From Modestobacter sp. VKM Ac-2984 (GTDB lineage: Bacteria; Actinomycetota; Actinomycetes; Mycobacteriales; Geodermatophilaceae), in assembly GCF_026967985.1 (NCBI RefSeq), contig NZ_JAPVBJ010000003.1:433101-497100 (forward strand): a stretch of DNA of 64,000 nucleotides, written 5' to 3'. Below are positions 25,986-41,668 of this stretch, in pieces (positions within the stretch are counted from its first letter, which is position 1; every line of letters begins with the position of its first letter). The notes below the pieces were generated by a model that saw only the letters and a list, made by a program, of their open reading frames with translations, was not told the origin of the DNA and did no database searches. Made by a program: the position numbers and the translations under genes.

Positions 25986-28859
25986 TCAGTCCTCGGCCAA
26001 CGTCTGCACCACGGCCGCGGCCCCGCTGCCCAGCCGCTCCTTGGCCTCGGCGCTGACCGTGAGCTGCCGGGCCGGGCTGTCGAGCCGGACGATGAACCGC
26101 TCGAGCTGCCGGACGGCCTGGTCGGGACGCCCCTGCTCCGCATGCCGGGCGGCGGCATCGAGCGCCGCGGCCAGCTGCCTGGCCAGCGGCCCCGACACGT
26201 GCTCCCGGTCGAGGTACCGCTGGAAGGTCTGGCGGAGACCGTCCAGGTCGACCACGTCACCGCTCAGCTCGGTGGAGGCGGAGAACGGCAGGGCGGCGGG
26301 GTCGAGGGCCCGGGTGGTGTTCTCCGTCGAGCCGAGGACCGCCGAGAACGCGGGGGTGGTCATGACGAAGGTCAGGACCCGTCGGGCGTTGGCCTCCAGC
26401 GCGGCTCGCGTGCTCTCGTGGTCCTCGGTGAGTGCACGGGAGAAGTCGGCGAGCCCCTGCCGGTCGTAGCCCGGGACCGGGATGTTGAGCATGAGGTCCG
26501 TCCCGGCCGCGGAGGCGCTCACGGCGTTCATGTAGGGCGAGATCCAGATGTCGGAGACCACGAACCCGTCGAAGCCCCACTCGCCGCGGGCGACGCCCTG
26601 GAGGAGTTCGGGAGTCGCACCGACCCACGTCTCACCGAGTCGGTTGAACGACGCCATGATCCCCAGTGAGCCGGCCTTGACGCCGTACTCGAACGGCTTG
26701 AGGTAGATCTCCCGCAGGGCACGCTCGGAGATGTAGGTCTCCACACCCTGCCGGTTCTGCTCCTGCTCGTTGCCCACGAAGTGCTTGACGACCGTGGTGA
26801 CGCCCTGCTGGCCGGCTCCGACGACGACGTTGGCCATCATCCCGGCGCCCAGCAGCGGGTCCTCCGAGTAGTACTCGAAGTTCCGGCCGCCCATCGGGTT
26901 GCGGTGGGTGTTGGCGCCGGGGGCGTACCAGGCGTCGACCCCGAGGGCGCGGGCCTCCGCGGCGGCGGCGGCGCCGTAGCGATGGGCGAGCTCGGTGTTC
27001 CACGTCGCCGCGAGCATCGAGGCCGCCGGGAACCCGGTTCCGTTCGGCTGGCCGCTGCCCGCGGGCGCCTTCACCTGCGCGGGTCCGTCCGTCGCGGCGG
27101 TCGCGGGGATGCCGAGGCGGTCCAGACCGATGGTCTTGAACCCGCCCTGCAGCTGCATCGCCACGAGCTCGGCGTCGGTGAACTGGGCGAGGAAGGCGTC
27201 CATGCGCGTCGGGTCCGCGTGGACGTCGGTGAGCTGGACCTCCGCCGGGCTCTGCCCCGGGGCCAGCGCGATCCGGTTCCCGTCGACCAGCGCCGGCATG
27301 GCGTCGGGTTCGTTGAGGAAGCCGGGCGGGTTCCCGGAGCCCTGGGCGTTGAAGCCGGAGCCGCGCGGGCTGGTGTTCGGGACCGTCCGCGTGCCGGTGG
27401 CCGGCGCGGTCGGGGCGGTCGCCTCGGGGTCCGTCTGGGACAGGACCGTCAGGCCCTCCCCTGCCTCGGCGAAGCGGTTCTCCAACGGAGCGCCCGTCGT
27501 CGGGTCCTCCTCGATGACGACCGGCTCGCTCAGCCGGAAGCTCCCGGTGACCTCGACGTCCTGCACGGAGGCACCGGAGTGGACCGTGTACTCGCCGGCG
27601 TCGAGCAGGTAGGCGCCCCGCTCCTCGCTCCAGGAACTCAGACCGTAGGCGTCGACGGTCGTGGTGACGACCTGTGACTGGCCGGGCTCGAGCAGGTCGG
27701 TCTTGCCGAAGGCCCGCAGCTCCTTGGCCGGCTTCTCCAGCTCACCGGCGGGAGCCTCGACGTAGACCTGGACGACCTCCTTGCCCGGCACGTCGCCGGT
27801 GTTGGTGACCCGGGTCGCCACGGACAGCCCGTCGGGACCGTGCTCGACGTCGAGGACGTCGTGCTCGAAGTCGGTGTAGGACAGGCCGTGCCCGAAGGGG
27901 AACTGCACCGGCACGTCGAAGGTCTCGAAGTAGCGGTAGCCGACGTAGATGCCCTCCTCGTACTGGACGTAGTACTCGTCCAGTCCCGGCTCGCTCCCGG
28001 GCTTGACGAAGTCGCCGAAGTTCACCGTCGAGGGGTGGTCCTCGGTCCGGTGGGCGATCGTGTGCGGCAGCTTGCCCGACGGGTTCACGTCACCGGAGAG
28101 CATGTCGGCGACGGACAGCATGCCGGCCTGCCCCGGGGTCCAGACGACCGCGGCGGCCTTGATGGACTCGTGCTCCTCGAGGAAGCCCATCTCCAGTGCG
28201 ACACCGGTGTTGAACAGCACGACGACCTCGTCGAAGTTCGACGCGACGGCGTCGATCATCTCCCGCTCGTCCGGGTAGAGCTCGAGGTCACCCAGGCCCG
28301 GGTCGTGGACCTCGCTGCCGTTGCGACCGATCATGACGACGGCCGTCCCGGAGAAGTCGCCGGCCTGCGCCAGGACGTCGCTGGGGAGGTCCATCTCCGC
28401 TCGCGCGACGGAGTTGATCCCGAACTCGTCGAACGTGCCGCCGGTGTCGCTGACGGGCCGGTAGTCCTGCTCCTTGCCCGGCACGCCGCCGTCGAGCCCT
28501 TCGTTCCACCACGTCTCGTAGCGCTGTGCGAGTGGCTCGTTGACCTGGAAGCCCTCGCCGCGCAGAGCGTCGAGCAGCCCCACGCCGCCGGCGTCGATGA
28601 CCGAACCGGAACCGCCGCCGCCGAGGAAGGGCGCGACCTGGGTGGAACCGAAGACCGACAGCTGGGTCCCCCGGCTCAACGGCAGCGCAGCGTCGTTCGC
28701 CAGCAGGACGATGCCCTCGTCGGAGACCGCCTTCGCCACCGTCCCGCCCTCGTCGCTGGGGGCGGCTGCGGCGGGAGTGGCCGCCAGGCCGAGGGCGAGC
28801 CCCGTGGCGGTCAGCACAGCGGCAGACCTCCGTGCCCGGCCGGTGGACGTCTGTGTCAT
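25986..28859 (-). CDS. Secreted GH3 beta-glucosidase-type enzyme with permuted domain order
   Basis: 957 residues with a twin-arginine-like signal peptide (RARRSAAVL...ATPAAAA). The GH3 C-terminal alpha/beta domain comes first (about 45-280, EGIVLLANDAALPL), then an FnIII-like domain (about 340-440, VTNTGDVPGKEVVQVYV). The TIM-barrel catalytic domain is last (about 590-860), with KHFVGNEQEQNR and the nucleophile Asp770 in GFDGFVVSDIW. This reversed order is known in a minority of GH3 enzymes such as that of Ruminococcus albus. About 100 extra residues end the protein. It would cleave glycosides outside the cell. A divergent TetR gene lies upstream with an operator-like palindrome. Confidence 0.87.
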   Translation of the reverse strand: MTQTSTGRARRSAAVLTATGLALGLAATPAAAAPSDEGGTVAKAVSDEGIVLLANDAALPLSRGTQLSVFGSTQVAPFLGGGGSGSVIDAGGVGLLDALRGEGFQVNEPLAQRYETWWNEGLDGGVPGKEQDYRPVSDTGGTFDEFGINSVARAEMDLPSDVLAQAGDFSGTAVVMIGRNGSEVHDPGLGDLELYPDEREMIDAVASNFDEVVVLFNTGVALEMGFLEEHESIKAAAVVWTPGQAGMLSVADMLSGDVNPSGKLPHTIAHRTEDHPSTVNFGDFVKPGSEPGLDEYYVQYEEGIYVGYRYFETFDVPVQFPFGHGLSYTDFEHDVLDVEHGPDGLSVATRVTNTGDVPGKEVVQVYVEAPAGELEKPAKELRAFGKTDLLEPGQSQVVTTTVDAYGLSSWSEERGAYLLDAGEYTVHSGASVQDVEVTGSFRLSEPVVIEEDPTTGAPLENRFAEAGEGLTVLSQTDPEATAPTAPATGTRTVPNTSPRGSGFNAQGSGNPPGFLNEPDAMPALVDGNRIALAPGQSPAEVQLTDVHADPTRMDAFLAQFTDAELVAMQLQGGFKTIGLDRLGIPATAATDGPAQVKAPAGSGQPNGTGFPAASMLAATWNTELAHRYGAAAAAEARALGVDAWYAPGANTHRNPMGGRNFEYYSEDPLLGAGMMANVVVGAGQQGVTTVVKHFVGNEQEQNRQGVETYISERALREIYLKPFEYGVKAGSLGIMASFNRLGETWVGATPELLQGVARGEWGFDGFVVSDIWISPYMNAVSASAAGTDLMLNIPVPGYDRQGLADFSRALTEDHESTRAALEANARRVLTFVMTTPAFSAVLGSTENTTRALDPAALPFSASTELSGDVVDLDGLRQTFQRYLDREHVSGPLARQLAAALDAAARHAEQGRPDQAVRQLERFIVRLDSPARQLTVSAEAKERLGSGAAAVVQTLAED

Positions 28860-28943
28860 GAGCGTGTTCTTCCTCAGGGTGTGAGTCGACGGCTGAGGCC
28901 TCGACGGGCGACCACGTGCTCGCGCGCGCTGACCGGGTCAGAG

Positions 28944-28959
28944 CTAACCACGTGGTCAG
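28944..28959. promoter_or_regulatory. Near-perfect palindrome between the GH3 and TetR genes
   Basis: CTAACCACGTGGTCAG is a 16-bp palindrome with one mismatched pair, lying 85 bp before the GH3 start and 149 bp before the divergent TetR gene. It is a candidate operator for that regulator. Confidence 0.5.
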
Positions 28960-29107
28960 CACTAGCAGTGTCGCGCGGGTCACATGTGGTGTCGAGTCGT
29001 CGCCGTCGTGACCTCGGCGGTCGGTCCGGATCCGGAGCGAGGCCCTGCCACTACCCTGCTGTTCGCCGACCGGGTCCGGTGGGCGCAGCGCGACGCGAGG
29101 AGTCACC

Positions 29108-29770
29108 GTGGGACGGCAGCGGGGGCCCAACGTGCGCACCCCCGAGCGACGACAGGCCATCCTGCGCGCGGCTCGCGACAGCTTCGTCGAACACGGCGTC
29201 GACGCAGCGTCCCTCCGCGACATCGCCGCTCGCGCCGGGATGACCCACGCCGGACTGCTCCACCACTACCGGAGCAAGGACGAACTGGTCGTGGCGCTGC
29301 TGCAACAGCGCGATGCCGAAGAGGTCGCGCGCGACCGGGCTCGACGACCGGCCGCGGGCGAGGAGGACGCGCTGGCACCGCTGCTCGCCGAACTGCTCAC
29401 CGAGCGCCAAGCCGCACCCGAGCTCGTCCGGCTGTGGCTGGAGATGACCGCTGCCGCTGCACGCCCCGCCCATCCGGCCCACGACTACTTCGCCGAGCGC
29501 TATGCCGGGGCCCGCAGCGCCATGGCCGCGCACCTGCGGTCCCGCCTCGTCGCCGGCGCGGTGCCCGACGACATCGACTCCGAACGCCTCGCAGCTCTCC
29601 TGGCCGCCGTGCTCGACGGCCTGCAACTGCAGTGGCTGCACGACCGCGACCTGCCGGTCGTCGACATCCTCGGCCACTTCCTCGAACTGGTCACCACCCC
29701 TCCTGCGGCACCACCGGCAGCAGCAGCGGACCGCGGCCGCGACGCCAGGTCAGCAACGCGCGTCACCTGA
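29108..29770 (+). CDS. TetR-family regulator, probably of the GH3 gene
   Basis: 220 residues. The HTH is at about 18-60 (RAARDSFVEHGVDAASLRDI, MTHAGLLHHYRSKDEL). An all-helical C-terminal ligand domain follows, with an Ala/Pro-rich tail. A GTG start follows GAGGAG. It is transcribed divergently from the GH3 gene with a palindrome between them, the usual arrangement for local repression. The ligand is presumably a glycoside or sugar if the GH3 gene is its target. Confidence 0.82.
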   Translation: MGRQRGPNVRTPERRQAILRAARDSFVEHGVDAASLRDIAARAGMTHAGLLHHYRSKDELVVALLQQRDAEEVARDRARRPAAGEEDALAPLLAELLTERQAAPELVRLWLEMTAAAARPAHPAHDYFAERYAGARSAMAAHLRSRLVAGAVPDDIDSERLAALLAAVLDGLQLQWLHDRDLPVVDILGHFLELVTTPPAAPPAAAADRGRDARSATRVT

Positions 29771-29796
29771 TCCGACTCACGGCGGGGCCTGGTGGG

Positions 29797-30417
29797 TCAG
29801 AGACCGACGCTCGCTCCCCCGGACACCGAGATCCCTGTTGCAGTGCCTGCCGCAGCCAGCGCGAACGCGTCTCGCAAGGACGAGGTGAACTCCTCCGGCC
29901 CTGCCGCGGCGTCCCACGACATGAACGTCTCCCGCACACAGGCGAGGGCGATGCCGGCGACGACCCGCGCAGGGAAGGGGGCGAGCCCCTGCTCCCGCAG
30001 CCACTGGTGCAACACCACCTCGAACTTCGCGTTCGCGACGACGTGGTGCCGGTCCAGCTCCGGTTCGTTGGCCAGGATCTGCCGCCGGGCCGCGACGACC
30101 CGGTGCTCCGCGACGAGGTGCTCCTCCAGCGCCGTCGTGAGCCCGGTCCATGCCCCGCCGCCGGCGTGCTCGGCCAGGCGAGAGGCCAGCACTGCCTGTT
30201 CGGTCGGGTCAGGGTCGAAGAGCGCGGCGGCCTTGGAGTCGAAGTGGTTGAAGAAGGTGCGGCGTGAGACCCCGGCGCGCCCGGCGATGTCGTCGATCGA
30301 CACCTCGGCGAAGCCCCGCTCGGCGAACAGGTCGATGGCAGCGGATCTCAGCCGGCGCCACCGATCGGTCTTGGCGCCGTCAGTGGGCGCGGCTGGGACG
30401 ACGGGGGCCGAGGACAC
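29797..30417 (-). CDS. TetR-family regulator beside the GMC oxidoreductase gene
   Basis: 206 residues. The HTH at about 22-65 reads AIDLFAERGFAEVSIDDIAG and VSRRTFFNHFDSK. The C-terminal domain is helical. It starts at a GTG at 30417 with CGAGGG immediately upstream. It is divergent from the GMC oxidoreductase gene, and a 15-bp inverted repeat lies in the 81-bp gap, so it is the first candidate to bind the TKGCAC-N3-GTGCMA sites of this region. Confidence 0.82.
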   Translation of the reverse strand: MSSAPVVPAAPTDGAKTDRWRRLRSAAIDLFAERGFAEVSIDDIAGRAGVSRRTFFNHFDSKAAALFDPDPTEQAVLASRLAEHAGGGAWTGLTTALEEHLVAEHRVVAARRQILANEPELDRHHVVANAKFEVVLHQWLREQGLAPFPARVVAGIALACVRETFMSWDAAAGPEEFTSSLRDAFALAAAGTATGISVSGGASVGL

Positions 30418-30456
30418 CCCTCGACATTACGTGTGACCGGGGTAACCTCCGATGGA

Positions 30457-30471
30457 TTGCACTGAGTGCAA
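30457..30471. promoter_or_regulatory. Operator-like inverted repeat at the GMC oxidoreductase promoter
   Basis: TTGCACTGAGTGCAA is a perfect 6-3-6 inverted repeat. It lies 8 bp after a weak promoter-like pair, TCGACA (30421-30426) and TAACCT (30443-30448), 16 bp apart, so it would cover the transcription start. It resembles the repeats at 36826-36887. Confidence 0.6.
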
Positions 30472-30498
30472 GTGGTGCCACCGACGATGGAGTTGAGT

Positions 30499-32100
30499 GT
30501 GAGCGAACAGTCCTGCGACGTCCTGATCATCGGAGCCGGCTCGTCCGGTTGCGTGCTGGCGAACCGACTGAGCGAGGACCCGGGGTTGGAGGTGCTCGTC
30601 CTCGAGGCGGGGGGTCCCGATCGACATCCGATGGTCTCGATCCCCAAGGGCATCGCCTTCACGCTGAAGAACCCCAAGTACGCGTGGTACTACCCGACCG
30701 AGCCGTTCGGCCCGTTCGGCCAGACGGAGTACTGGCTGCGCGGCAAGATGGTCGGCGGCTCCAGCTCGGTGAACGGGATGGTCTACAACCGCGGCTCGCA
30801 GGCGGACTTCGACGGCCTGGAGGCCGCGGGCAACCCGGGCTGGGGGTGGGCCGAGATGCTGCGGGTGTACCGGTCGATGGAGGACCACTCGCTGGGCGGC
30901 TCGGACACCCGGGGTGCGGGCGGCCCGCTGCAGGTGGGGGTCCGACCGGACACCGAGGAGGTCGGCGAGCTGCTCATGGAGTCCGCGGGACACCTGGGCA
31001 TCAAGAAGGTCGCGGACCTGAACGCCAGCGACGAGGAGCGGATCGGGTACACCCCTGCGACGATCCGCAACGGGCTCCGGGTGAGCGCAGCGCGAGCGTT
31101 CCTGCGACCGGCGCTCAAGCGCCCGAACGTCACGCTGCACACCGACACCCGGGTCACCAGGCTGCTGATCGAGAACGGCCGGGCCGTCGGCGTCGAAGCG
31201 GTGTCCGACGGTTCGACCGTCACCATCCGGGCCCGACGAGAGGTGATCCTGGCGGCCGGGGCGATCGCCAGCCCGCAGCTGCTGGAGCTCTCCGGCATCG
31301 GTTCCCCCGAGGTGCTGGGCGCGGCCGGCATCGACGTCAAGGTCGAGCACGAACGCATCGGCGAGGGGCTGCGTGAGCACCGCTGCTTCCCGCTGCAGGT
31401 GCGCCTGAAGAAGGACACCGGCTACAACCGGCTGCTCTCCAGCCGGCCGCGCCAGGGACTCAGCGGCGCCCGCTGGATGCTCACCCGGCGCGGCCCGATC
31501 GGGACGCCGGCGTACGACATGCTCTCCTTCTTCCGGACCTCCCCCGAGGTGGACCGGCCGAACGCCCAGGTGCTGCTCACCCCGTACTCGATGGGCCTGG
31601 GTGCCGCGAGCGTCGGCGTGGAGAACCGTCCCGGTTTCTCCCTGCTCGGCTTCACCCTCCGGCCCACCAGCACCGGCAGCGTGCACATCCGGTCGGCGGA
31701 CCCGACCGTGCCGCCCCGCATCGTGCCGAACTACCTCTCCACCGAGCACGACCGCTCCGTGTCGATCGCCATGTTCCGGAAGATGCGCGCCCTGGTCGCG
31801 CAGTCGCCGATCGCCGACCTGGTCGACTCCGAGATCCAGCCGGGCCGCGCGGTCGAGGACGACGAGTCGGTCCTGAATGCCGGCTTCCTCTACGGCGGCA
31901 CCGGCTACCACTCCAGTGGAGCTGTCGCGATGGGCCCGGACGACGCGTCACCGGTCGACTCCCGGTTGCGGGTGCGCGGTGTGGACGGCCTGCGGGTCGT
32001 CGACGTGTCGGTGATGCCCGCGATGCTCTCCGGCAACCTGAACGCCCCTGCCATGGCGATGGCCTGGCGGGCCGCGGAGTTGATCCGCGATGACCTCTGA
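30499..32100 (+). CDS. GMC-family FAD-dependent oxidoreductase
   Basis: 533 residues. The FAD-binding GAGSSGCVLANRLSED is near the N-terminus and GKMVGGSSSVNGMVYNRGS follows at about 85-100. The C-terminal GMC_oxred_C domain includes YGGTGYHSSGAVAMG, where the His is the catalytic base, and NLNAPAMAMAWRAAEL. Relatives are alcohol and choline dehydrogenases. I start at the GTG at 30499, preceded by GGAG at 6 nt; an upstream ATG at 30487 lacks a ribosome binding site. It heads an operon with the CMD-like and aldehyde dehydrogenase genes, suggesting alcohol to aldehyde to acid oxidation. Confidence 0.85.
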   Translation: MSEQSCDVLIIGAGSSGCVLANRLSEDPGLEVLVLEAGGPDRHPMVSIPKGIAFTLKNPKYAWYYPTEPFGPFGQTEYWLRGKMVGGSSSVNGMVYNRGSQADFDGLEAAGNPGWGWAEMLRVYRSMEDHSLGGSDTRGAGGPLQVGVRPDTEEVGELLMESAGHLGIKKVADLNASDEERIGYTPATIRNGLRVSAARAFLRPALKRPNVTLHTDTRVTRLLIENGRAVGVEAVSDGSTVTIRARREVILAAGAIASPQLLELSGIGSPEVLGAAGIDVKVEHERIGEGLREHRCFPLQVRLKKDTGYNRLLSSRPRQGLSGARWMLTRRGPIGTPAYDMLSFFRTSPEVDRPNAQVLLTPYSMGLGAASVGVENRPGFSLLGFTLRPTSTGSVHIRSADPTVPPRIVPNYLSTEHDRSVSIAMFRKMRALVAQSPIADLVDSEIQPGRAVEDDESVLNAGFLYGGTGYHSSGAVAMGPDDASPVDSRLRVRGVDGLRVVDVSVMPAMLSGNLNAPAMAMAWRAAELIRDDL

Positions 32101-32569
32101 GACGCCGGACCGGCCCGCGGCGACCGACCGCTGGAGCGCCGGCGGTGAGGTGATGGACGCCGTCTACGGTCCCGGCTTCTCCGCCCGGCTCTCCCCCACC
32201 GAGGCCGACCCCTGGCTGACCGACACCGTCGAGCACCTCTTCGGCGAGGTCTGGGCACGGCCGGGGCTCTCGATCCGGGACCGCCGGCTGCTGGTGATCG
32301 GCGCGACGGCGGCGCTCGGGCGGGAGGACCTGCTCCGGGTGCAGGTGCGCGGCGGCCTGCGGGGCGGGGAGTTCGACGCCGACGGCCTCCAGGAGGTGCT
32401 GCTGCAGCTGGCCTACTACGTCGGCTGGGGCAACGCCACGGCCCTGGCGGCCGGGATCAGGGCGGCGATCGCCGATGTGTCGGCCGAGGCGCCGCCGACG
32501 GACTCACACGCCCAGGACGACGCAGACACCCAGGACGAGGACACCCACGAGCGAGGAGCATCCGCATGA
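32090..32569 (+). CDS. Carboxymuconolactone decarboxylase-like (AhpD fold) protein
   Basis: 159 residues. The core at about 55-125 (PGLSIRDRRLLVIGATAALG, then LQEVLLQLAYYVGWGNATAL) is the all-helical CMD domain; no CxxC pair of AhpD peroxidase type is present. A Ser/Asp/Glu-rich tail ends the protein. It overlaps the GMC gene by 11 nt and the aldehyde dehydrogenase gene by 4 nt. Family members act on lactones in aromatic catabolism, but many are uncharacterised, so activity is open. Confidence 0.78.
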   Translation: MTSETPDRPAATDRWSAGGEVMDAVYGPGFSARLSPTEADPWLTDTVEHLFGEVWARPGLSIRDRRLLVIGATAALGREDLLRVQVRGGLRGGEFDADGLQEVLLQLAYYVGWGNATALAAGIRAAIADVSAEAPPTDSHAQDDADTQDEDTHERGASA

Positions 32570-34065
32570 CCACCACCCTCCCCGAGACCGACACCGGCTC
32601 CGGCCCGCTGGCCGGCGAGCGACGGCTGTTCATCGACGGCGAGCTCGTGCTCGCCTCCGACGGCGGGTTGATCGAGAACATCGACCCGAGCACCGGTGAG
32701 GTCGCCGGCCACGCCGCATCTGCGACCGCGGCGGACATGGAGCGGGCCATCGCCGCGGCACGGCGGGCCTTCGACGACGGCCGCTGGTCCGGTGACCCCG
32801 GGTTCCGCAGCCACTGCCTCCGGCAGCTGCACGAGGCGCTCCTGGAGGAGCGGGAGCGGCTGCGCCGGATCGTCGTCACCGAAGCCGGCAGCCCCATCGC
32901 GCTCACCCACGGCGTCCAGCTGCAGCAGCCGATCGACGAGGCCCTGTACTGGTCGGAGAAGGCGGTGTCGTTCGAGTACGAGGAGGAGTGGCCGGCGCAC
33001 GAGTCGAGGGGGCAGATGCACCGGCGCCGCATCCGGTACGAGCCCACCGGGGTCGTCGCGGCGATCACGCCGTGGAACTACCCGCTCTACCTCAACGTGG
33101 CCGAGTCGCTGCCCGCCCTGGCCGCGGGGAACACCGTCATCCTCAAGCCGGCCTCGCTCACGCCGTGGAGCGGGCTGGAGCTCGGTCGCATCGTCGCGGA
33201 GAAGACCGACATCCCAGCGGGGGTGTTCAACGTCGTCACCACCGACTCGACCGACGTCATCGAGATGCTCACGACCGATCCGCGGGTCGACATGGTGACG
33301 TTGACCGGCTCGACGGCGACCGGCCGCCGGGTGCTGGCCGCCGGCGCCGCCACCATCAAGAAGACCTTCCTCGAGTTGGGTGGCAAGTCCGCCCACGTCG
33401 TGCTCGAGGACGCGGACCTGATGCAGGTGCTGCCGAACACCGCAGCCGTCTGCTCGCACGCCGGGCAGGGGTGCACGCTCTCGACCCGGCTGCTGCTCCC
33501 CCGCAGCCGGTACGACGAGGCGCTGCGCATCCTGCAGGCCGTGTTCGAGCGGGTGCCCGTCGGCGACGTCTGGGACCCGGCGGTCATCCACGGGCCGCAG
33601 GTCAGCGCCCGGCAGCGGGACAACATCGTGGCGGCCATCGACGCTGCGGTGGCCGCGGGCGCTCGGCTGCTCACCGGTGGCCACGCTGTCACCGATCGAC
33701 CGGGGTACCACGTCGAACCGACGGTCCTGGTCGACGTGGACCCGTCGTCGGCAGTCGCGCAGGAGGAGATCTTCGGCCCGGTGCTCTGCGTGATCCCCTA
33801 CGACACCGTGGACGAGGCGGTGGAGATCGCCAACTCGACCATCTACGGCCTCGCCGGGGAGGTCAGCGGCGGTACCGACGAGGGCGCGCTGGAGGTGGCC
33901 CGGCGGCTGCGGGCGGGCAGCATCGCCGTCAACGGCGGGAACTACTTCTCGGTCACCACGCCGCTGGGCGGCTACGGGCAGAGCGGCTTGGGGCGGCGCA
34001 ACGGGGACGAGGGCTTCCGCGAGTACATGGAGCTCAAGGCCATCGGTCTGCCCCAGCGGGCGTGA
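32566..34065 (+). CDS. NAD(P)-dependent aldehyde dehydrogenase
   Basis: 499 residues, full length. The catalytic Cys303 is in AGQGCTLSTR and the general base Glu270 in FLELGGK. The PWN motif has Asn171. The EEIFGPVLCVIPYD and GGYGQSGLGRRNGDEG segments are typical. It oxidises an aldehyde to an acid, presumably the product of the GMC enzyme encoded two genes upstream. The ATG overlaps the preceding stop (ATGA) and follows GAGGAG. A strong terminator follows. Confidence 0.92.
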   Translation: MTTTLPETDTGSGPLAGERRLFIDGELVLASDGGLIENIDPSTGEVAGHAASATAADMERAIAAARRAFDDGRWSGDPGFRSHCLRQLHEALLEERERLRRIVVTEAGSPIALTHGVQLQQPIDEALYWSEKAVSFEYEEEWPAHESRGQMHRRRIRYEPTGVVAAITPWNYPLYLNVAESLPALAAGNTVILKPASLTPWSGLELGRIVAEKTDIPAGVFNVVTTDSTDVIEMLTTDPRVDMVTLTGSTATGRRVLAAGAATIKKTFLELGGKSAHVVLEDADLMQVLPNTAAVCSHAGQGCTLSTRLLLPRSRYDEALRILQAVFERVPVGDVWDPAVIHGPQVSARQRDNIVAAIDAAVAAGARLLTGGHAVTDRPGYHVEPTVLVDVDPSSAVAQEEIFGPVLCVIPYDTVDEAVEIANSTIYGLAGEVSGGTDEGALEVARRLRAGSIAVNGGNYFSVTTPLGGYGQSGLGRRNGDEGFREYMELKAIGLPQRA

Positions 34066-34111
34066 CACCGGCACCGACCGCAGCCGGCACCCGTCGGCAG
34101 CACTGAGGCAA

Positions 34112-34139
34112 GGCCGCCCCGCCGACCGGCGGGGCGGCC
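34112..34139 (+). terminator. Terminator of the GMC-CMD-aldehyde dehydrogenase operon
   Basis: GGCCGCCCCGCC and GGCGGGGCGGCC form a perfect 12-bp stem with a GACC loop, 46 nt after the stop codon. Confidence 0.75.
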
Positions 34140-34207
34140 CCGCTGTCCCGGGTGCGCTCAGGACGGCGGGACTTCCCGAGTACATCGATGACAGCGAGGT
34201 CGACAAC

Positions 34208-35803
34208 ATGAGCACCGTCCGTACGTTCGATGTGATCGTGGTGGGATTCGGCGACGCCGGCGCGGCAGCAGCGATCGAGGCAGCCGACAACGGCGCTCGG
34301 GTGCTGGTCCTGGACCGGAGCTACGGCGGCGGTGCCAGCGCCCTGTCCGGTGGCGTCGTCTACGCCGGCGGCGGGACGCCCCAGCAGCAGGCCAACGGGT
34401 ACTCCGACACCCCGGAGAACCTGTTCGACTACCTCGCGCTCGAGGCCGGCGACGCCGTCGACGAGGCCACCCTGCGGCGGTTCTGCGAGGAGAGCCCTGG
34501 GACGATCCCGTGGCTGGAGGCGCAGGGGGCGAGCTTCGCCAGCTCCCTGGTCCCGTACAAGACCTCCTACCCGACCGACGACTACTACCTCTACTTCTCC
34601 GGGAACGAGAAGGCCCACCCGTACAAGCTGAGCGCCGAGCCGGCGCCGCGGGGGCACCGGACCGTCGCCTCGGGGCTGGCCTCGGGCAAGGTGTTGTGGC
34701 AGCACCTCAGCGCGTCGGCCACGCGCAAGGGCGTCACCTTCCTGCCGCTGGCCCGGGTCCACGACCTCCAGGTCGTGGACGGCAAGGTCGTCGTGAAGTA
34801 CCGCGTCCTCCCCGCCGACGTGGCCGCGCGGGCCGGGCACGCCAAGCACGTCAAGCGCGGCGGCAAGCTCGGCAACTGGTCACCTCCGCTGGGCGAGTTC
34901 TTCAACGGCAAGGCCGATGCGATCTGGGACGAGGGTGCGGTCGACGAGGAGGCCCACGGAAGCGCGGTGGTCCTGGCGGCCGGCGGCTTCGTCTACAACC
35001 CCGAGTGGATGGCCCGCTACGCGCCGGAGTTCGACAGGATCTCCCCCCTGGGCACCCCCGGCGACGACGGCAGCGGCATCCAGCTGGGCCTCGACGTCGG
35101 CGGCACGGTGGCCAAGATGGGCAACGTCACCGCCTGGCGCTTCCTCTCCCCGCCCAGCGCCTTCCTCGAAGGCGTGACGGTCGGCATGGACGGCTCCCGG
35201 ATCGCCAACGAGGACCTCTACGGCGCGACCCACGGCAACGTGATGGTGCGGGAGTTCGCCGGCAAGGGATGGGCCGTCTACGACTCCACCACCTGGAAGA
35301 AGGCCCGGGGGCAGGTCAGGTCGCAGGCCCAGATCTTCCAGAAGCTGCAGCTGATGTACCTGTTCAGCGCCGGACACAAGAAGGCCCAGACCTTGTCCGA
35401 GCTGGCGCGGAAGACCGGCGTCGACGCCCGCGGGCTGCAGGCGACGGTGGACGCGTACAACGCCGGCATCGCCAGCGGGACCGGCGACCCGGCGCACAAG
35501 GACCCCGAGTACTCCACCCCGGTGCTGAACCCGCCGTTCTACGCCGTCGACATCTCCGTCGAGAACGCGCCGTTCTTCCCGGTCCCGGGACTCACGCTGG
35601 GCGGGCTGGTGGTCGACGGTGAGACCGGCCTGGTGGTGCGCGAGGACGGCGGCCTCGTCGACGGGGTCTACGCGGCCGGGCGCAATGCGGTGGGGGTCTG
35701 CTCGAACAGCTACATCAGCGGGCTTGCGCTGGCGGACTGCATCTTCTCCGGTCGCCGGGCCGGCGCCCATGCGGCGAGGACGGCCCGGGTCACCGCCCCC
35801 TGA
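34208..35803 (+). CDS. FAD-binding dehydrogenase, fumarate reductase/KstD family
   Basis: 531 residues. The N-terminal dinucleotide fold reads GFGDAGAAAAIEAADNGARV. The FAD-contacting ASALSGGVVYAGGG and the C-terminal AAGRNAVGVCSNSYISGLAL are characteristic of KstD-like flavoproteins acting on 3-ketosteroids and related ketones. GAGG precedes the ATG. The gene lies between two terminators, so it is probably its own transcript. Substrate unknown; terpenoid- or steroid-type ketones are plausible from the neighbourhood. Confidence 0.82.
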   Translation: MSTVRTFDVIVVGFGDAGAAAAIEAADNGARVLVLDRSYGGGASALSGGVVYAGGGTPQQQANGYSDTPENLFDYLALEAGDAVDEATLRRFCEESPGTIPWLEAQGASFASSLVPYKTSYPTDDYYLYFSGNEKAHPYKLSAEPAPRGHRTVASGLASGKVLWQHLSASATRKGVTFLPLARVHDLQVVDGKVVVKYRVLPADVAARAGHAKHVKRGGKLGNWSPPLGEFFNGKADAIWDEGAVDEEAHGSAVVLAAGGFVYNPEWMARYAPEFDRISPLGTPGDDGSGIQLGLDVGGTVAKMGNVTAWRFLSPPSAFLEGVTVGMDGSRIANEDLYGATHGNVMVREFAGKGWAVYDSTTWKKARGQVRSQAQIFQKLQLMYLFSAGHKKAQTLSELARKTGVDARGLQATVDAYNAGIASGTGDPAHKDPEYSTPVLNPPFYAVDISVENAPFFPVPGLTLGGLVVDGETGLVVREDGGLVDGVYAAGRNAVGVCSNSYISGLALADCIFSGRRAGAHAARTARVTAP

Positions 35804-35870
35804 GCCACGCCTGCCGGTCACGGCGGTCCCCACCTGACGGAGATCCCGAGCGGCGACGACCCGTGGCCCC

Positions 35871-35907
35871 GCGGTGCGTGCTGGCCAGACCGTCCAGCAC
35901 GCACCGC
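35871..35907. terminator. Bidirectional terminator between the flavoprotein and SDR genes
   Basis: GCGGTGCGTGCTGG and CCAGCACGCACCGC form a perfect 14-bp stem with a 9-nt loop between convergent genes. Confidence 0.75.
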
Positions 35908-35920
35908 AGCACCGGACCGG

Positions 35921-36739
35921 TCAGAAGTGCTGGGTGCCGCCGTCGACCGAGAGGTGCTCGGAGGTGATGAAGCTGGCCTCGTCGGAGGCCAGGAACGCCA
36001 CGGCGTTGGCGATCTGGTCCGGGGTCGTGTACGGCGGGTCGGTGAACGTCGTCCCCATGGGGGCGAGCCGCGGGTACGTCTCCCAGGTGCGCCGGATGGC
36101 ACCCATCATGTCCCCGCCGCCCATCGGCGTGGCCACGCCGCCGGGATGGACCGAGTTGACCCGGATGCCGTGCGCGCCGAGCTCGGCCGCGAACCCGCGG
36201 GTCATGCCGGTCACGGCGTGCTTGCTGGTCGTGTAGTGGACCATGAACGGCTGCATCTTCTTGCCCGCCGCGGAGCTGATCAGGATGATCGACCCGCCGT
36301 TGCCGGCGGACACCATGTGCGGCGCGCTCGCCATCACGGTGTTCCACACGCCGGTGACGTTGATGTCCATCGTGTCGCGGAAGATCTCCGGCGTTGCCTC
36401 GTCCCACGCGGCCGGCACGCAGATGCCCGCGTTGGCGACGGCCACGTCCAGCCGGCCGAACTCCGCCACCCCACGCGCCACGAACGCCTTCATGCCCTCC
36501 AGGTCGCGCACGTCGCCCTGGTGGGTGAGCACCCGCCGACCGAGGGCCTCGACGGCAGTGGCCGTCTCGGCCAGCTCATCGGGCGTCGCCGACTCGTAGG
36601 GGACGTGCGGCATGGCGCCGGCGAGGTCCAGGGCCAGGATGTCGGCCCCCTCCTCGGCCAGCCGTACTGCGTGCGCGCGTCCCTGCCCGCGCGCTGCGCC
36701 GGTGATGAACGCGACCTTCCCAACCAGCCGTCCTGCCAA
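35921..36739 (-). CDS. Mycofactocin-coupled SDR-family oxidoreductase
   Basis: 272 residues. The start of the protein, GRLVGKVAFITGAARGQGR, then the family-specific insertion after the second strand (DLAGAMPHVPYESATPDELA) match the SDR subfamily that co-occurs with mycofactocin (TIGR03971 type). These enzymes hold NAD tightly and use mycofactocin as electron acceptor. The catalytic pair is in HYTTSK. A TTG at 36739 is the only sensible start; GAGACGAGG precedes it. It is divergent from the mftD-like gene, sharing a 174-bp control region with three inverted repeats. Confidence 0.87.
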   Translation of the reverse strand: MAGRLVGKVAFITGAARGQGRAHAVRLAEEGADILALDLAGAMPHVPYESATPDELAETATAVEALGRRVLTHQGDVRDLEGMKAFVARGVAEFGRLDVAVANAGICVPAAWDEATPEIFRDTMDINVTGVWNTVMASAPHMVSAGNGGSIILISSAAGKKMQPFMVHYTTSKHAVTGMTRGFAAELGAHGIRVNSVHPGGVATPMGGGDMMGAIRRTWETYPRLAPMGTTFTDPPYTTPDQIANAVAFLASDEASFITSEHLSVDGGTQHF

Positions 36740-36825
36740 CGTCCTCGTCTCCTTCGGTCGGTGAAGCGGTGAGCGCAGGCGTGCGCCGGTCTCCTGCCCC
36801 GGCCCTGACGCGCGTCGGGCCATCG

Positions 36826-36887
36826 TGGCACGGAGTGCCACCAGTTGTGGCAGCCTGTGCCACGAATTGTCTTGGCACTCAGTGCCA
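36826..36887. promoter_or_regulatory. Three operator-like inverted repeats in the SDR/mftD divergent promoter
   Basis: Site 1 at 36826-36840 is TGGCAC-GGA-GTGCCA, perfect. Site 2 at 36848-36862 is TGGCAG-CCT-GTGCCA, with one mismatch. Site 3 at 36873-36887 is TGGCAC-TCA-GTGCCA, perfect. Centre spacings are 22 and 25 bp, so the sites lie on roughly the same side of the helix. Site 3 ends 26 bp before the mftD-like ATG. Confidence 0.75.
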
Positions 36888-36913
36888 TGACCTCGGGACG
36901 ACGGAGGAGTCAG

Positions 36914-38152
36914 ATGGCGAACGCGTGGTTCGAGTCGGTGGCAGAAGCGCAGCGTCGAGCGAAGAAGCGCCTGCCCAAGGGGGTGTACGGCGCCCTGGTG
37001 GCCGGCTCGGAGCGTGGGCTGACCGTGGACGACAACACGGCTGCGTTCGCCGAGCTGGGGTTCGCCCCGCACACGGCGGGGTTGAGCAACGAGCGGCAGC
37101 TGGCCACCACGATCATGGGCCAGCAGGTCTCCATGCCGATCATGATCAGCCCCACCGGGGTGCAGGCGGTCGACCCCGACGGTGAGGTCGCGGTGGCGCG
37201 CGCGGCCGCCTCGCGCGGGGTGGCGATGGGGTTGTCCTCCTTCGCCAGCAAGCCGATCGAGGAGGTCGTGGCGGCCAACCCGCAGACCTTCTTCCAGATG
37301 TACTGGGTCGGCTCCCGGGAGGAGATGCTGGGCCGGATGCAGCGGGCGAAGGACGCCGGTGCGGTCGGCATGATCGCCACCCTGGACTGGTCGTTCGCCT
37401 ACGGCCGGGACTGGGGCAGCCCGTTCATCCCGGAGAAGATCGACTTCGAGGCTGCTCGGAAGTACGCGCCTCAGGTGCTGGCCCGGCCGCGGTGGCTGCT
37501 CGACTTCGCCCGCACCCGCAAGCTCCCCGACCTCACGGTGCCGAACATGGTGGCCAAGCCGGGAGATGAGCCCCCGACGTTCTTCGGGGCCTACGGGCAG
37601 TGGAGCGCCTCCCCGATGCCCTCCTGGGAGGACGTCGCGTGGCTGCGCTCGCAGTGGGACGGGCCGTTCATGCTCAAGGGCGTGATGCGGATCGATGACG
37701 CCAAGCGCGCCGTGGACGCCGGGGTCACCGCGATCTCGGTGTCCAACCACGGGGGCAACAACCTCGACGGCACCCCGGCCGCGATCCGGGCGCTGCCCGC
37801 GGTCGTCGCGGCGGTCGGTGACCAGGTCGAGGTGCTGATGGACGGCGGCATCCGCCGTGGCGGCGACGTCGCCAAGGCCCTCGCCCTGGGCGCCCGGGCG
37901 GTCATGATCGGCCGGGCCTACCTGTGGGGCCTGGCCGCCAACGGCGAGGCCGGGGTGGGCAACGTCCTCGACCTGCTCCGCGACGGCCTCGGGTCGGCCC
38001 TGGTCGGCCTGGGCCACCGCTCGGTCGACCAGCTCAGCCCGGCCGACCTCGTCGTCCCACCGCACTTCGAACGACACCTCGGCGACGACACGACGGCCGA
38101 CGCCCCGGTGGAGAGCACCCCCTCGCGACGACGCCGGTCGACCGGCGTCTGA
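36914..38152 (+). CDS. mftD: MftD-type FMN-dependent alpha-hydroxy-acid dehydrogenase family protein
   Basis: 412 residues. It follows M. tuberculosis Rv0694 (MftD) closely over its length: MANAWFESVAEAQRRAKKRL, SPTGVQAVDPDGEVAVARAA, GPFMLKGVMRIDDAKRAVDA. The catalytic His279 is in SNHGGNNLDG, with Asn282 where lactate-oxidising relatives have a substrate-binding Arg; MftD has the same Asn. FMN-contacting Lys255 and Arg314 are present. MftD oxidatively deaminates the mycofactocin precursor. GGAGGAG precedes the ATG. About 25 C-terminal residues are extra. No other maturation gene is nearby, so it may be a paralogue with a changed role. Confidence 0.82.
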   Translation: MANAWFESVAEAQRRAKKRLPKGVYGALVAGSERGLTVDDNTAAFAELGFAPHTAGLSNERQLATTIMGQQVSMPIMISPTGVQAVDPDGEVAVARAAASRGVAMGLSSFASKPIEEVVAANPQTFFQMYWVGSREEMLGRMQRAKDAGAVGMIATLDWSFAYGRDWGSPFIPEKIDFEAARKYAPQVLARPRWLLDFARTRKLPDLTVPNMVAKPGDEPPTFFGAYGQWSASPMPSWEDVAWLRSQWDGPFMLKGVMRIDDAKRAVDAGVTAISVSNHGGNNLDGTPAAIRALPAVVAAVGDQVEVLMDGGIRRGGDVAKALALGARAVMIGRAYLWGLAANGEAGVGNVLDLLRDGLGSALVGLGHRSVDQLSPADLVVPPHFERHLGDDTTADAPVESTPSRRRRSTGV

Positions 38153-38171
38153 CCCCGGGACCTGCACACCC

Positions 38172-38202
38172 GCTGAGCCGACCGGTGGCCGGTCGGCTCA
38201 GC
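38172..38202. terminator. Bidirectional terminator between mftD-like and TetR genes
   Basis: GCTGAGCCGACCGG and CCGGTCGGCTCAGC form a perfect 14-bp stem with a TGG loop; the end overlaps the TetR stop codon. Confidence 0.75.
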
Positions 38203-38791
38203 GGGCGGCGAGCACCTCGTCGAGGTGCCCGAGCGGATCGGGCAGCTCGCCGGTGACCACGTCGTCGAGCCACACCCGGAACGTGGCGACCGCACGGGCG
38301 ACGACCAGCCGGGTGCGCCAGCCCACCGGGGGCAACGCCCCGCGCCGAGCCAGCAGCCGCACGGCCACGTCACGCTCCCGGTCGGCCAGCTGCAGGAACG
38401 GGCTCGGCCGGGAGGCCGCGGACTCCTCCGCCACCCGCAGGAAGAGAGCCAGTCGCTCCCGGTGGTCGACGACGTAGCCGGCCAACGTGCGCAACGCGTG
38501 GTCGAGCGCCGCGGCGTCGTCCAGCTGCTGCGGGGCGGCGGTGATCGCCGAGGTCAGTCGGGCAGCCATCTGCCGTGCGGGCTCGGCGAGGACGTCCTCC
38601 CGGCTGGGGAAGTACCGGAAGAAGGTGCGGGGCGCGATCTGGGCCGCCTCGCAGATGTCGGCCACGGTCACCTCGTCGTAGCCGCGCTCGGCGAACAGGG
38701 TCAACGCCGCGTCGACCGTCGTCGCGCGACTGTGCGCCCGCTTGCGCTCTCGGACGCCCACGATGCCGGCGTCGTCGTTCTCGGCTGCCAT
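38198..38791 (-). CDS. TetR-family regulator divergent from the MFS exporter
   Basis: 197 residues. The HTH at about 20-65 reads DAALTLFAERGYDEVTVADI and IAPRTFFRYFPSREDV. A helical ligand domain follows. The ATG at 38791 has GGAGG at 9 nt; an earlier ATG at 38815 is possible. Its promoter region contains the inverted repeat at 38922. With the TetR gene at 29797 it is one of two candidates for the factor that reads the shared repeats of this region. Confidence 0.82.
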   Translation of the reverse strand: MAAENDDAGIVGVRERKRAHSRATTVDAALTLFAERGYDEVTVADICEAAQIAPRTFFRYFPSREDVLAEPARQMAARLTSAITAAPQQLDDAAALDHALRTLAGYVVDHRERLALFLRVAEESAASRPSPFLQLADRERDVAVRLLARRGALPPVGWRTRLVVARAVATFRVWLDDVVTGELPDPLGHLDEVLAAR

Positions 38792-38921
38792 CCTCCCCGC
38801 CCTCCACCTCGCCACCGTCCCGCCGCCGCGATGCGGTTGCAGTGACCAACCACACCCCGCAAGTCGGGTGACCGCCGCCGGAGCGGCTCGCCACCACCAT
38901 CTCAGCGCCTAGTCTGCCTGG

Positions 38922-38936
38922 TGGCACAAACTGCCA
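38922..38936. promoter_or_regulatory. Operator-like inverted repeat at the MFS exporter promoter
   Basis: TGGCACAAACTGCCA has perfect 5-bp outer arms, TGGCA-N5-TGCCA, matching the outer bases of the SDR/mftD sites. It lies 7 bp after TAGTCT (38910-38915), a candidate -10 box for the MFS gene. Confidence 0.55.
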
Positions 38937-39003
38937 TCGCCTTCCCGGACGCCACTGCCGTCGCCACCGGGCTCCTGCACCCCTCCTCCGCGACGGAGAA
39001 CCC

Positions 39004-40485
39004 ATGGCACCCCCACCCACCACGGCCGCCCGGGCCTCGTCCCCCGACGCCGCAGCTGCCCCGGACACCGGATGGGACGCCCGCCAGGTCACCGCGGTCG
39101 CCATCGTCGCGACCTGCGGCGTCCTGGTGTCGTTGACCCAGACGCTGCTGGTGCCGGTGCTGCCGCAGATCCAGGCCAGCCTGGGGAGCTCGACCAGCGG
39201 AACCCAGTGGCTGCTGACCTCCACGCTGCTGGTCGCCGCCGTCGCCGTCCCGGTCTTCGGGCGGCTGGGCGACCTCTACGGCAAGCGGCTGATGCTCACC
39301 GTCGCCGCCGCCGCCCTCACCGTCGGCTCGCTGATCTGTGCGTTCAGCGACTCCCTCGGCTGGCTCATCGCCGGCCGGGCCGTCACCGGCATGTCCGCCG
39401 CGGCCATCCCGCTGGGCATCAGCCTGATCGGCTCCGTCCTCCCCGCCCACCGGGCGGGCGCGGGCATCGCCCTGGTCAGCGCCACGCTGGGCATCGGTGG
39501 CGCCCTCGGCCTGCCACTGGCCGCGCTGGTCGCCGAGAACGCCGACTACCACGCCCTGTTCTGGATCTGCGTCGTCGGCGGCGTGATCGCCATGGTCGGC
39601 GTCCTGCTCGCGGTGAAGGAACCCCCACGGATCGCCACCGGCCGGATGGACCACCTCGGTGCCGTCCTGCTCGCCGCGGCGCTCGTCTGCCTGCTCTACC
39701 CCCTGGCCCAGGCCACGACGTGGGGCTGGGACGACCCCAGGACGGTCGGCCTGCTGATGGCCGCCGCCGTCCTGCTGGTGGTGTTCGTGCTCGTCGAGCG
39801 GAGGGTGGCCTCGCCGCTGGTGGACATGGTGGTCAACGCCCGGCCGTCCCTGCTGCTGACCAACATCGCCTCGGTGTGCGTCGGGTTCGCCCTGTTCGCC
39901 ATGCTGATCGGCACCGCCTCCTACGTGCAGGCCCCCGAGGCCACCGGCTACGGCTTCGGCTCCTCGGTGCTGGCCAGTGGGCTGGCGATGCTGCCCAGCG
40001 GTGTCGCGATGCTGCTGCTGTCGCCGGTGTCGGCCAAGCTGTCCGAGCGGTTCGGCCCCAAGACCACCCTCGCCCTCGGGGCCACGGTCGTCGCCCTGGG
40101 TTTCCTCTGCCGCATCGTGTTCACCGGCTCGTTCACCCAGATCGTGATCGGGACGACCGTCGTCGGAGCCGGGACCGGCATCGCCTACGCCGCCATGCCC
40201 GCGCTCGTCCTGCGCGCCGCCCCCCGGTCCGAGCTCGCCGCGGCCAACGGGCTCAACGCCCTGGCCCGCAGTTTCGGCAGTTCGCTGGCCAGCGCCATCG
40301 GCGGCACGGTCCTCGCCGCCTCCACCCTCACCCTCGGCGCGTTCGAGCTGCCCTCGCTGAGCTCCTACCGACTGCTCTTCGGCATGTGCGCCGGCGCCGC
40401 CCTGCTCGGTGCCCTGATCGCACTGGTCATCCCCACCGCCCCGCAGGACGCGGAACGTGCTCCGGCGCACGCCCATGCGGCCTGA
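39004..40485 (+). CDS. MFS drug/metabolite exporter, EmrB/QacA (DHA2) type
   Basis: 493 residues with about 14 membrane segments. Family motifs are GRLGDLYGKRLML (motif A), the LPQIQASLGSSTSGTQWLLT segment, and SATLGIGGALGLPLA (motif C, antiporter signature). It probably exports an organic compound by proton antiport. GGAG precedes the ATG. The divergent TetR gene and the palindrome at 38922 suggest induction by a toxic substrate or intermediate of the neighbouring pathway. Confidence 0.9.
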   Translation: MAPPPTTAARASSPDAAAAPDTGWDARQVTAVAIVATCGVLVSLTQTLLVPVLPQIQASLGSSTSGTQWLLTSTLLVAAVAVPVFGRLGDLYGKRLMLTVAAAALTVGSLICAFSDSLGWLIAGRAVTGMSAAAIPLGISLIGSVLPAHRAGAGIALVSATLGIGGALGLPLAALVAENADYHALFWICVVGGVIAMVGVLLAVKEPPRIATGRMDHLGAVLLAAALVCLLYPLAQATTWGWDDPRTVGLLMAAAVLLVVFVLVERRVASPLVDMVVNARPSLLLTNIASVCVGFALFAMLIGTASYVQAPEATGYGFGSSVLASGLAMLPSGVAMLLLSPVSAKLSERFGPKTTLALGATVVALGFLCRIVFTGSFTQIVIGTTVVGAGTGIAYAAMPALVLRAAPRSELAAANGLNALARSFGSSLASAIGGTVLAASTLTLGAFELPSLSSYRLLFGMCAGAALLGALIALVIPTAPQDAERAPAHAHAA

Positions 40486-40504
40486 GCCGACCGGCGCGCA
40501 GCTG

Positions 40505-41632
40505 ATGACAGCCGACCAGCAGGGCGCGCCGGGCGACGACCGGCAACGGCCGGGTCCCACCGACCCGACTGACGGCGACACCTCCCAGCCCGGTGGTGGC
40601 CGCCCGACGGCGCGGGCGGCCGCCACCGCCTCGCCGAGGCGTCGGCTCGGCCGGTTCGCGATCGTCCTCACCTGTCTGGCGCTGGCGGTCTGGGCCCTGA
40701 CCTCGGTGCCGTGGACGGACACCTGGCGCGTCGTCTCCCGAGCCCAGTGGCCCTGGCTGCTCGTGGCGGCCGCAGGGACGCACCAGTCGGCAGCGAGCTG
40801 GGCCGTCGCCACCCGCCCCCTCCAGCCGGCGCACGCGCGGGTCACCCACCGGAAGCTGCTCGCGGTCAGCTACAGCAGCACCGCCATGACCCAGGCCCTG
40901 CCCGGAGGCAGCGTCGTCGGCGCCGCCTACGCGGTCTCGCGGCTGCGCTCCTGGGGAGCCAGCACGGGCGAGGCGCTCTGGATCACCTCCATGACCGCCC
41001 TGCTCAGCGGCGTGGTCCTCGCCGCAGCGGGCCTGGTCGGCCTCCTCAGCACCGGAGAGGGATCCGCCGGCACCGTGCTGACCGGCGGGGTCGCCCTGCT
41101 GGCCGTGACCGCGCTCGCCAGGCCCGCGGCGACGTTGAGCGTCCTGGGTGCCGGCGTCACGCGCGGCATCGGCGCGTTCCAGCGGCTCCCCGGCCGCGCC
41201 TCCCGCGCCGCGGACGCAGCCCGGGGCGGCTGGCGGCGGATGCTCGACCAGCTGCTGGCACAGCGGCTGTCCCCGGTCGCCGGGGCGCAGGCGGCGGCAT
41301 GGACGGTCGCCACCGTCCTCGGCGGCCTGCTCACGCTGTGGGGCTGCAGCCAGGCGGTGGGCGCCGAGCTCGGACCCACGCTGCTGCTCGCGGCCTACCT
41401 GACCGTCCGCGCCACCTCGCTCGTCCAGGTCACGCCGGGCGGACTCGGGGTCACCGACACCGCGCTGATCGCCGTCCTCAGCGCCGGCGGCGTCGACCTG
41501 GCCACCGCGACCGCACTGACCCTCGTCCACCGGGGGCTCACGATGGGCCTGAACGCGGTCATCGGCTGGACCGCGCTCGCCGTGGCCCGTCGTCCGCCCG
41601 GGACGGCCCCGGCCGGAGCGGCCACCGGTTGA
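40505..41632 (+). CDS. Lysylphosphatidylglycerol-synthase-like transmembrane protein (UPF0104/YbhN)
   Basis: 375 residues. A polar N-terminus of about 55 residues precedes some eight membrane segments. LPGGSVVGAAYAVSRLRSWG and the C-terminal VTPGGLGVTDTALIAVLSAG match the LPG_synthase_TM family, members of which are flippase-like. No catalytic aminoacyl-transfer domain is attached. I start at the ATG at 40505; an ATG at 40475 overlapping the MFS gene is possible. It lies directly behind the MFS gene and may be co-transcribed. Confidence 0.78.
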   Translation: MTADQQGAPGDDRQRPGPTDPTDGDTSQPGGGRPTARAAATASPRRRLGRFAIVLTCLALAVWALTSVPWTDTWRVVSRAQWPWLLVAAAGTHQSAASWAVATRPLQPAHARVTHRKLLAVSYSSTAMTQALPGGSVVGAAYAVSRLRSWGASTGEALWITSMTALLSGVVLAAAGLVGLLSTGEGSAGTVLTGGVALLAVTALARPAATLSVLGAGVTRGIGAFQRLPGRASRAADAARGGWRRMLDQLLAQRLSPVAGAQAAAWTVATVLGGLLTLWGCSQAVGAELGPTLLLAAYLTVRATSLVQVTPGGLGVTDTALIAVLSAGGVDLATATALTLVHRGLTMGLNAVIGWTALAVARRPPGTAPAGAATG

Positions 41633-41640
41633 CCGACCGG

Positions 41641-41668
41641 GCACCACGGCCGGGTGCGACCGTGGTGC
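41641..41668. terminator. Bidirectional terminator hairpin
   Basis: GCACCACGG and CCGTGGTGC form a 9-bp stem with a 10-nt loop between the convergent membrane protein and MarR genes. Confidence 0.6.

Follow-up and report, generated by a model that had tools for sequence, protein, structure and literature searches.

A second mftD gene and a mycofactocin-type dehydrogenase around a palindrome-bearing control region in Modestobacter

Why should a second premycofactocin synthase gene stand beside a dehydrogenase gene, apart from the genes with which the cofactor is made? The question is raised by 64,000 nucleotides of Modestobacter sp. VKM Ac-2984 (the window; G000:C15:433101-497100), which hold mftD2, a second copy of the premycofactocin synthase gene, next to a gene for a mycofactocin-type short-chain dehydrogenase/reductase (SDR). 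The genome of this strain (G000) has 4.56 Mb in 21 contigs, and 112 genomes of its family, Geodermatophilaceae, were compared. We consider the locus to be, most probably, an accessory mycofactocin-dependent oxidation module under the control of MftR or a related TetR regulator, which brings its own dose of premycofactocin synthase and whose mftD was probably homogenised with the resident copy, mftD1, by gene conversion. The parts are known and their combination is unusual, without amounting to a new system. What is new here are the three operator-like palindromes between the SDR gene and mftD2, and an mftD core 97.9% identical to that of the resident copy and joined to a foreign tail. The open-licence literature matches listed contained no report of a duplicated mftD or of mycofactocin in Modestobacter.

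The features on which the argument turns are, in window positions:

35921..36739, minus strand: mycofactocin-coupled SDR (TIGR03971, 340.6 bits against a cut-off of 300), with a TTG start at 36739
36826..36840, no strand: MftR-operator-like palindrome 1, TGGCACGGAGTGCCA, from a pattern scan
36848..36862, no strand: MftR-operator-like palindrome 2, TGGCAGCCTGTGCCA, from a pattern scan
36873..36887, no strand: MftR-operator-like palindrome 3, TGGCACTCAGTGCCA, the same sequence as the site before mftD1
36914..38152, plus strand: mftD2, second premycofactocin synthase copy, 412 aa (TIGR03966, 687.6 bits against a cut-off of 470.85)
38084..38149, plus strand: C-terminal tail of mftD2, of another mftD subtype (tail comparison)

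The dehydrogenase, mftD2 and the rest of the pathway

The preliminary description of this DNA proposed an SDR with the mycofactocin-specific insertion and an MftD homologue with the MftD-type active site, divergently transcribed from one control region, and these assignments are confirmed. The mftD2 open reading frame (ORF) is intact and full length, and its product passes the curated NCBIfam cut-off for MftD, which was passed in none of 14 control genomes. The signature SNHGGNN occupies residues 277-283, with Asn282 aligned with the Arg of L-lactate oxidase. MftD is a member of the flavin mononucleotide (FMN)-dependent alpha-hydroxyacid oxidase family, and a place among ordinary lactate dehydrogenases, for which the preliminary description had allowed, was ruled out: the LldD model gave 215 bits against a cut-off of 550. 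According to the accessible text of PMC11778925, MftD converts 3-amino-5-[(4-hydroxyphenyl)methyl]-4,4-dimethyl-2-pyrrolidinone (AHDP) into premycofactocin, and the mftD2 product would be expected, from its identity as an MftD, to do the same. In score, active-site signature and length mftD2 is like other members of TIGR03966; it differs from them as an additional copy that lies away from mftABC, has an SDR gene for a partner and ends in a tail unlike that of the resident gene.

Among the 40 SDR matches in the genome, only the window SDR exceeds the TIGR03971 cut-off. Its insertion at the nicotinamide adenine dinucleotide (NAD) site has no counterpart in four further SDRs that G000 encodes and aligns with 3TSC, the closest solved sequence. 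3TSC is on the accession list of a paper on insertion-bearing mycobacterial SDRs with buried NAD, and TIGR03971-type SDRs appear to retain NAD and to need an external acceptor (PMC5264612, accessible part). The window SDR resembles TIGR03971 proteins (carveol dehydrogenase type; 3TSC, 3PGX) in score, insertion and closest structure, and differs in lying away from mftABC with an mftD of its own.

The window does not qualify as a mycofactocin biosynthetic cluster: mftA, mftB and mftC are not beside mftD. The absence of mftA, mftB, mftC, mftE and mftF from the 64 kb, as given in the preliminary description, was borne out by searching the window with the genome's own proteins (tblastn, E<=1), which returned a single short MftE match (E 0.55); MftR, in the same search, matched the TetR genes. 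The searches of the whole genome that the preliminary description had proposed found both the maturation genes and another mftD. The mftR, mftA, mftB, mftC and mftE genes lie on contig C12 at about 411-415 kb, all over curated NCBIfam cut-offs, with mftF about 13 kb from them at C12:426416 (505.2 bits against 280) and mftG at C12:649455 (460.4 bits, pieces summed, against 387.45 for TIGR03970). The resident mftD1 occupies C15:5078-6307, where it is flanked by a YceI gene on one side and a PF00144 beta-lactamase-family gene on the other. All of mftA to mftF, which a TIGR03971 SDR calls for at the level of the genome, are present, and since they lie elsewhere, the window module would be fed by cofactor made elsewhere.

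Two mftD genes with a nearly identical core

From its start codon to about codon 391 (the stretch 36911..38089, plus strand), mftD2 is 97.9% identical to mftD1 over 1179 bp, and on both sides identity drops to background, as seen both in the one long high-scoring segment pair and in a 60-bp profile. Within codons 2-390 the two proteins differ in one amino acid, I76V. The preliminary description had offered a detached mftD or an MftD paralogue; the gene is an extra copy of an ordinary MftD, and the idea of a diverged paralogue falls away. No gene compared from any other genome is more than 91.6% identical to either copy, and mftD1 and mftD2 are sisters with a support of 100 in a tree of 85 sequences (a quick build, with Shimodaira-Hasegawa-like approximate likelihood-ratio, SH-aLRT, support only). 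Sister copies were seen in none of the 10 other multi-copy genomes with at least two copies in the tree; 11 genomes besides this one are multi-copy, and one copy from G012 is absent from the tree.

Beyond the core, the mftD2 tail finds its best match in G092 with a score of 60, against 24 for the YceI-locus copy of its own genome, and none of 500 shuffles reached 60. The mftD1 tail is the same or nearly the same in the YceI-locus copies of the closest congeners. On the upstream side, the nearest palindrome lies at -41 in mftD2, versus -106 to -109 in the YceI-locus copies of G000, G102, G103, G086, G101 and G090, which is weak evidence because other YceI-locus copies vary (-40 in G089, -68 in G104). 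The sharp identity boundaries, together with the foreign tail, suggest that an mftD that had a promoter and a tail of its own probably predates the homogenisation of the core, and the two cores were probably made alike by ectopic gene conversion.

The orthologues in G102, G103 and G086 match each of the two copies at about 91% identity, which favours neither direction of conversion, nor is the direction settled by the identities with G102 of 91.6% for mftD, 97.3% for the YceI gene and 93.4% for the PF00144 gene. The YceI-locus mftD genes of G101 (L175) and G090 (L169) are only 84-85% identical to mftD of G000 overall, with the lowest identity from about +60 to +780 and higher values in most flanking and 3' windows, as in mosaic alleles. 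This patchy profile suggests that mftD recombines in the genus more generally.

Operator-like palindromes and the placement of mftD in the family

In Mycolicibacterium smegmatis, the MftR operator is GGCA-N5-TGCC, and MftR is reported as responsive to acyl-CoA, long-chain acyl-CoA inducing the mft genes through it (PMC8728441, accessible part). The pattern TGGCA-N5-TGCCA contains the core of this published operator, and three exact copies lie inside 62 bp of the 174-bp region, at 36740-36913, between the SDR gene and mftD2. The mycobacterial operator and the window have the GGCA-N5-TGCC palindrome in common, and TGGCACTC is common to the operator and site 3; the window differs in carrying three such candidate sites in a row, between the SDR gene and mftD2. 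There are four exact sites in the whole window, against a mean of 0.05 in dinucleotide shuffles. The genome has 10, of which three lie between the SDR gene and mftD2, one lies before mftD1 and five fall outside the module and the mftD1 promoter; the surroundings of these five were surveyed by ORF reading, with a family search for one of the ORFs. The genome-wide number is at the level of chance; the placement is non-random.

This placement extends to other genomes. A site with at most one mismatch precedes 78 of 147 distinct mftD genes (56 exact), compared with 1.26 by shuffles, here and in the next test of single bases; the 147 remain from 163 rows after removal of repeats and of rows with <150 bp upstream. 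By origin, these sites fall on 73 of 85 rows from the family and on 5 of 62 from outside it. The divergent regions between mftR and mftB carry the site in 48 of 54 cases (0.54 by shuffles), that of G000 with one mismatch, which ties the site to MftR by position; only MftR and MftB matches of >55% identity were used for these regions, and L153 and L160 were each counted twice. The Rhodococcus mftD rows examined have no site, and mftD there mostly follows mftC directly; mftD is also without a site in L067 and L098 (labelled Mycolicibacterium, with no mftC match within 10 kb). With three operator-like palindromes in the shared control region, MftR or a related neighbouring TetR is probably the switch, and MftR would be expected, from the likeness of the sites, to bind there. 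If it does, the members of the mycofactocin regulon become predictable from DNA. In one further case, an acyl-CoA dehydrogenase gene is preceded by an exact site at a distance of 45 bp (L222, G000:C12:353635).

The preliminary description took it that MftD normally lies inside the mft cluster, which does not hold for this family. Here, mftD over the cut-off occurs in 101 of 112 genomes and mftC in 100. For four of the 115 mftD genes, no mftC was found in the genome; of the other 111, 51 have mftC within 10 kb and 60 are farther from it or on another contig, a share that draft assemblies may inflate. In 50 of the 97 genomes with both genes, no mftD lies within 10 kb of mftC, and the one-contig genomes G043, G047, G048, G062 and G079 are among these 50. 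Within the genus, mftD stands beside the YceI gene in 14 of 18 mftD-bearing genomes, G000 included, and near mft genes in the remaining four (G085, G087, G088, G093). Detached mftD genes are common in Geodermatophilaceae, and the window gene is the extra copy in its genome, one of 12 among the 101 mftD-bearing genomes that have more than one. Often free-standing, mftD is apparently tied to its pathway by the shared operator-like site and not by linkage.

Other multiple copies were also encountered. G087 (L163, L164, L165) and G105 (L179, L180, L181) have three mftD genes each, along with three and two mftC genes, respectively, and hence more than one mft cluster per genome. A divergent subtype, about 61% identical to mftD2, is found at G105:C3, G089:C53, G012:C29 and G081:C225; three of these loci are surrounded by several SDR matches and the remaining one by a single match. 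Tandem mftD pairs occur in 15 mft loci of the Rhodococcus group (L073, L076, L081-L084, L087, L089-L096).

Of the 112 family genomes, 17 contain relatives of the SDR (E<=1e-90), which reach at least 70% identity in 10 places. In neighbourhoods where only matches to the query-protein set were placed, the nearest recognised neighbour is mftD in six of these 10 (G000, G025, G026, G014, G054, G016), and the two genes are divergent in five of the six. Four of the six pairs have mftR, mftB and mftC beside them, and two, those of G000 and G054, stand alone. The Blastococcus mft clusters at L033 and L042 (mftC, mftB, mftR, SDR, mftD) share the divergent SDR/mftD arrangement, with SDRs 75-78% identical to that of the window, but have one operator-like site upstream of mftD where the window has three, and contain mftR, mftB and mftC, whereas the window is without mftR, mftA, mftB and mftC. 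The SDR/mftD pair looks like a piece of the mft cluster layout that is able to stand alone, and it may have originated from such a cluster.

Readings of the locus and its neighbouring genes

If the locus is an accessory module, the SDR would hold NAD tightly and hand electrons to mycofactocin, and SDR and mftD2 would be read outward from their one control region, switched together with the biosynthetic genes on the other contig. The mftD2 product would be the same enzyme as that of mftD1 and would add premycofactocin-synthase capacity upon SDR induction. The cofactor would be made by mftABCEF with either mftD and reoxidised by MftG, encoded elsewhere, and the module would presumably be substrate-specific. 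By descent, the SDR/mftD pair would be the pair found inside the mft cluster of some Blastococcus, the cores of mftD2 and mftD1 having later been made alike by gene conversion.

The near-identical core and the sister position of the two copies would also be expected if mftD2 had arisen by a simple recent duplication of mftD1 into the site next to the SDR gene, with no conversion and with local sequence for a tail; the lack of sister copies in the 10 other multi-copy genomes would then make it a one-off in the sample. We find this unlikely, as similarity ends at the start codon and at about codon 391, the tail resembles those of another subtype beyond any of the shuffles, and the palindrome spacing, a weak point, differs from that of several YceI-locus copies. 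It is doubtful, too, that mftD2 is a redundant relic, persisting through recency or conversion copying while mftD1 suffices. Only three of the 14 genus genomes with a YceI-locus mftD carry a further mftD, and the SDR was not found in G102, G103 and G086 at E<=1e-90, both of which suit a relic; the intact ORF with its single amino-acid change, the three palindromes of the control region and the recurrence of the SDR/mftD neighbourhood in six of 10 orthologous places do not. The idea that MftD2 serves the SDR/mycofactocin cycle, as its flavin oxidase or its reoxidant, in place of a biosynthetic role would draw on its pairing with a type of SDR that needs an external acceptor and on its membership of an oxidase family, and is very improbable given a sequence nearly identical to that of the resident copy and an MftG in the genome for reoxidation.

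Several observations weigh against the accessory-module reading itself. The genome-wide count of 10 palindromes is close to the 11 of a reversed-pattern control, no site (at most one mismatch) separates the genes of the stand-alone SDR/mftD pair of G054, and none was found in the stretches fetched around the strain's own mftF and mftG. The two flanking MftR-like TetR genes described below mean that the repressor may not be MftR. Four of 10 SDR orthologues have no adjoining mftD, the direction of the mftD1/mftD2 conversion is not fixed by the comparisons run, and the presence of two near-identical mftD genes may be transient and serve no function.

The apparently homogenised mftD pair, with its different control regions, is a clean natural case in which to ask whether MftD is a limiting, dosage-sensitive step. 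We offer more tentatively the idea of a modular cofactor supply in the family, in which a mycofactocin-dependent dehydrogenase would have its own premycofactocin-synthase copy at a separate place, opening the module would also raise the formation of the cofactor, and conversion with the housekeeping copy would keep the enzymes identical despite differing promoters and tails.

The genes and sites on either side are:

29797..30417, minus strand: TetR regulator (best NCBIfam model MftR, 67.4 bits, under 224.9)
30457..30471, no strand: related palindrome TTGCACTGAGTGCAA, between the TetR and GMC genes, with two mismatches to TGGCACNNNGTGCCA
30499..32100, plus strand: GMC oxidoreductase, start at 30499 or 30466 (PF00732/PF05199; best structure 8b7s)
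32090..32569, plus strand: CMD-like protein, overlapping the GMC stop (PF02627)
32566..34065, plus strand: aldehyde dehydrogenase, overlapping the CMD stop (PF00171; best NCBIfam model TIGR04284, 581.9 bits, under 775)
34208..35803, plus strand: flavin adenine dinucleotide (FAD)-binding flavoprotein (FAD_binding_2; NF005513, 790.6 bits against 608; best structure 4at0)
38198..38815, minus strand: TetR regulator (best NCBIfam model MftR, 79.8 bits, under 224.9)
38922..38936, no strand: operator-like palindrome, TGGCACAAACTGCCA, in the TetR/MFS intergenic stretch
39004..40485, plus strand: DHA2-type MFS transporter (TIGR00711, 169.2 bits, under 230.2)

The GMC oxidoreductase, CMD-like and aldehyde dehydrogenase genes are present beside the SDR/mftD pair, in agreement with the preliminary description, from whose list the flavoprotein, the two flanking MftR-like TetR genes and the MFS gene were missing. 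The first three genes, with their overlapping ends, have the look of an operon. Among solved structures, a chloramphenicol-inactivating oxidoreductase (8b7s) has the sequence nearest to that of the GMC protein, whose identity as MftG was ruled out by a TIGR03970 score of 304.2 bits against 387.45. The palindrome at 30457 was rejected as a meaningful site, being by itself at chance level (six matches, 4.9 expected). For the flavoprotein, the closest solved structure, 4at0, is a 3-ketosteroid delta4-(5alpha)-dehydrogenase. The set of enzymes would suit a route in which a secondary alcohol is oxidised to a ketone, a desaturation is introduced next to it and an acid is formed from a primary alcohol; this is a guess, to which we give only limited credence. 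The flavoprotein occurs in one of 112 family genomes (G000 only; E<=1e-90); across the order, 60 of the 397 genomes sampled have it, G000 included (E<=1e-120). In 12 of the 59 other surroundings (L288-L299), a search with the window proteins gave no mftD, GMC or CMD match, and hence no hint of a substrate.

In the sister genome G101 (about 93% DNA identity), the flanks 25982-29754 and 41534-48000 adjoin, about 225 bp apart, and most of window 29755-41533 is missing. The 3' end of the flippase-like gene (window 40457-41632) survives as a remnant at the junction, a sign of deletion in G101; we do not claim the module as an inserted island. The plasmid relatives (19 records) are all <60% identical. 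The module is adjoined by a gene for a 957-aa GH3-family protein that bears Fn3-like and FIMAH domains (window 25986-28859, minus strand), the DNA of which is common to G000, G101 and G090.

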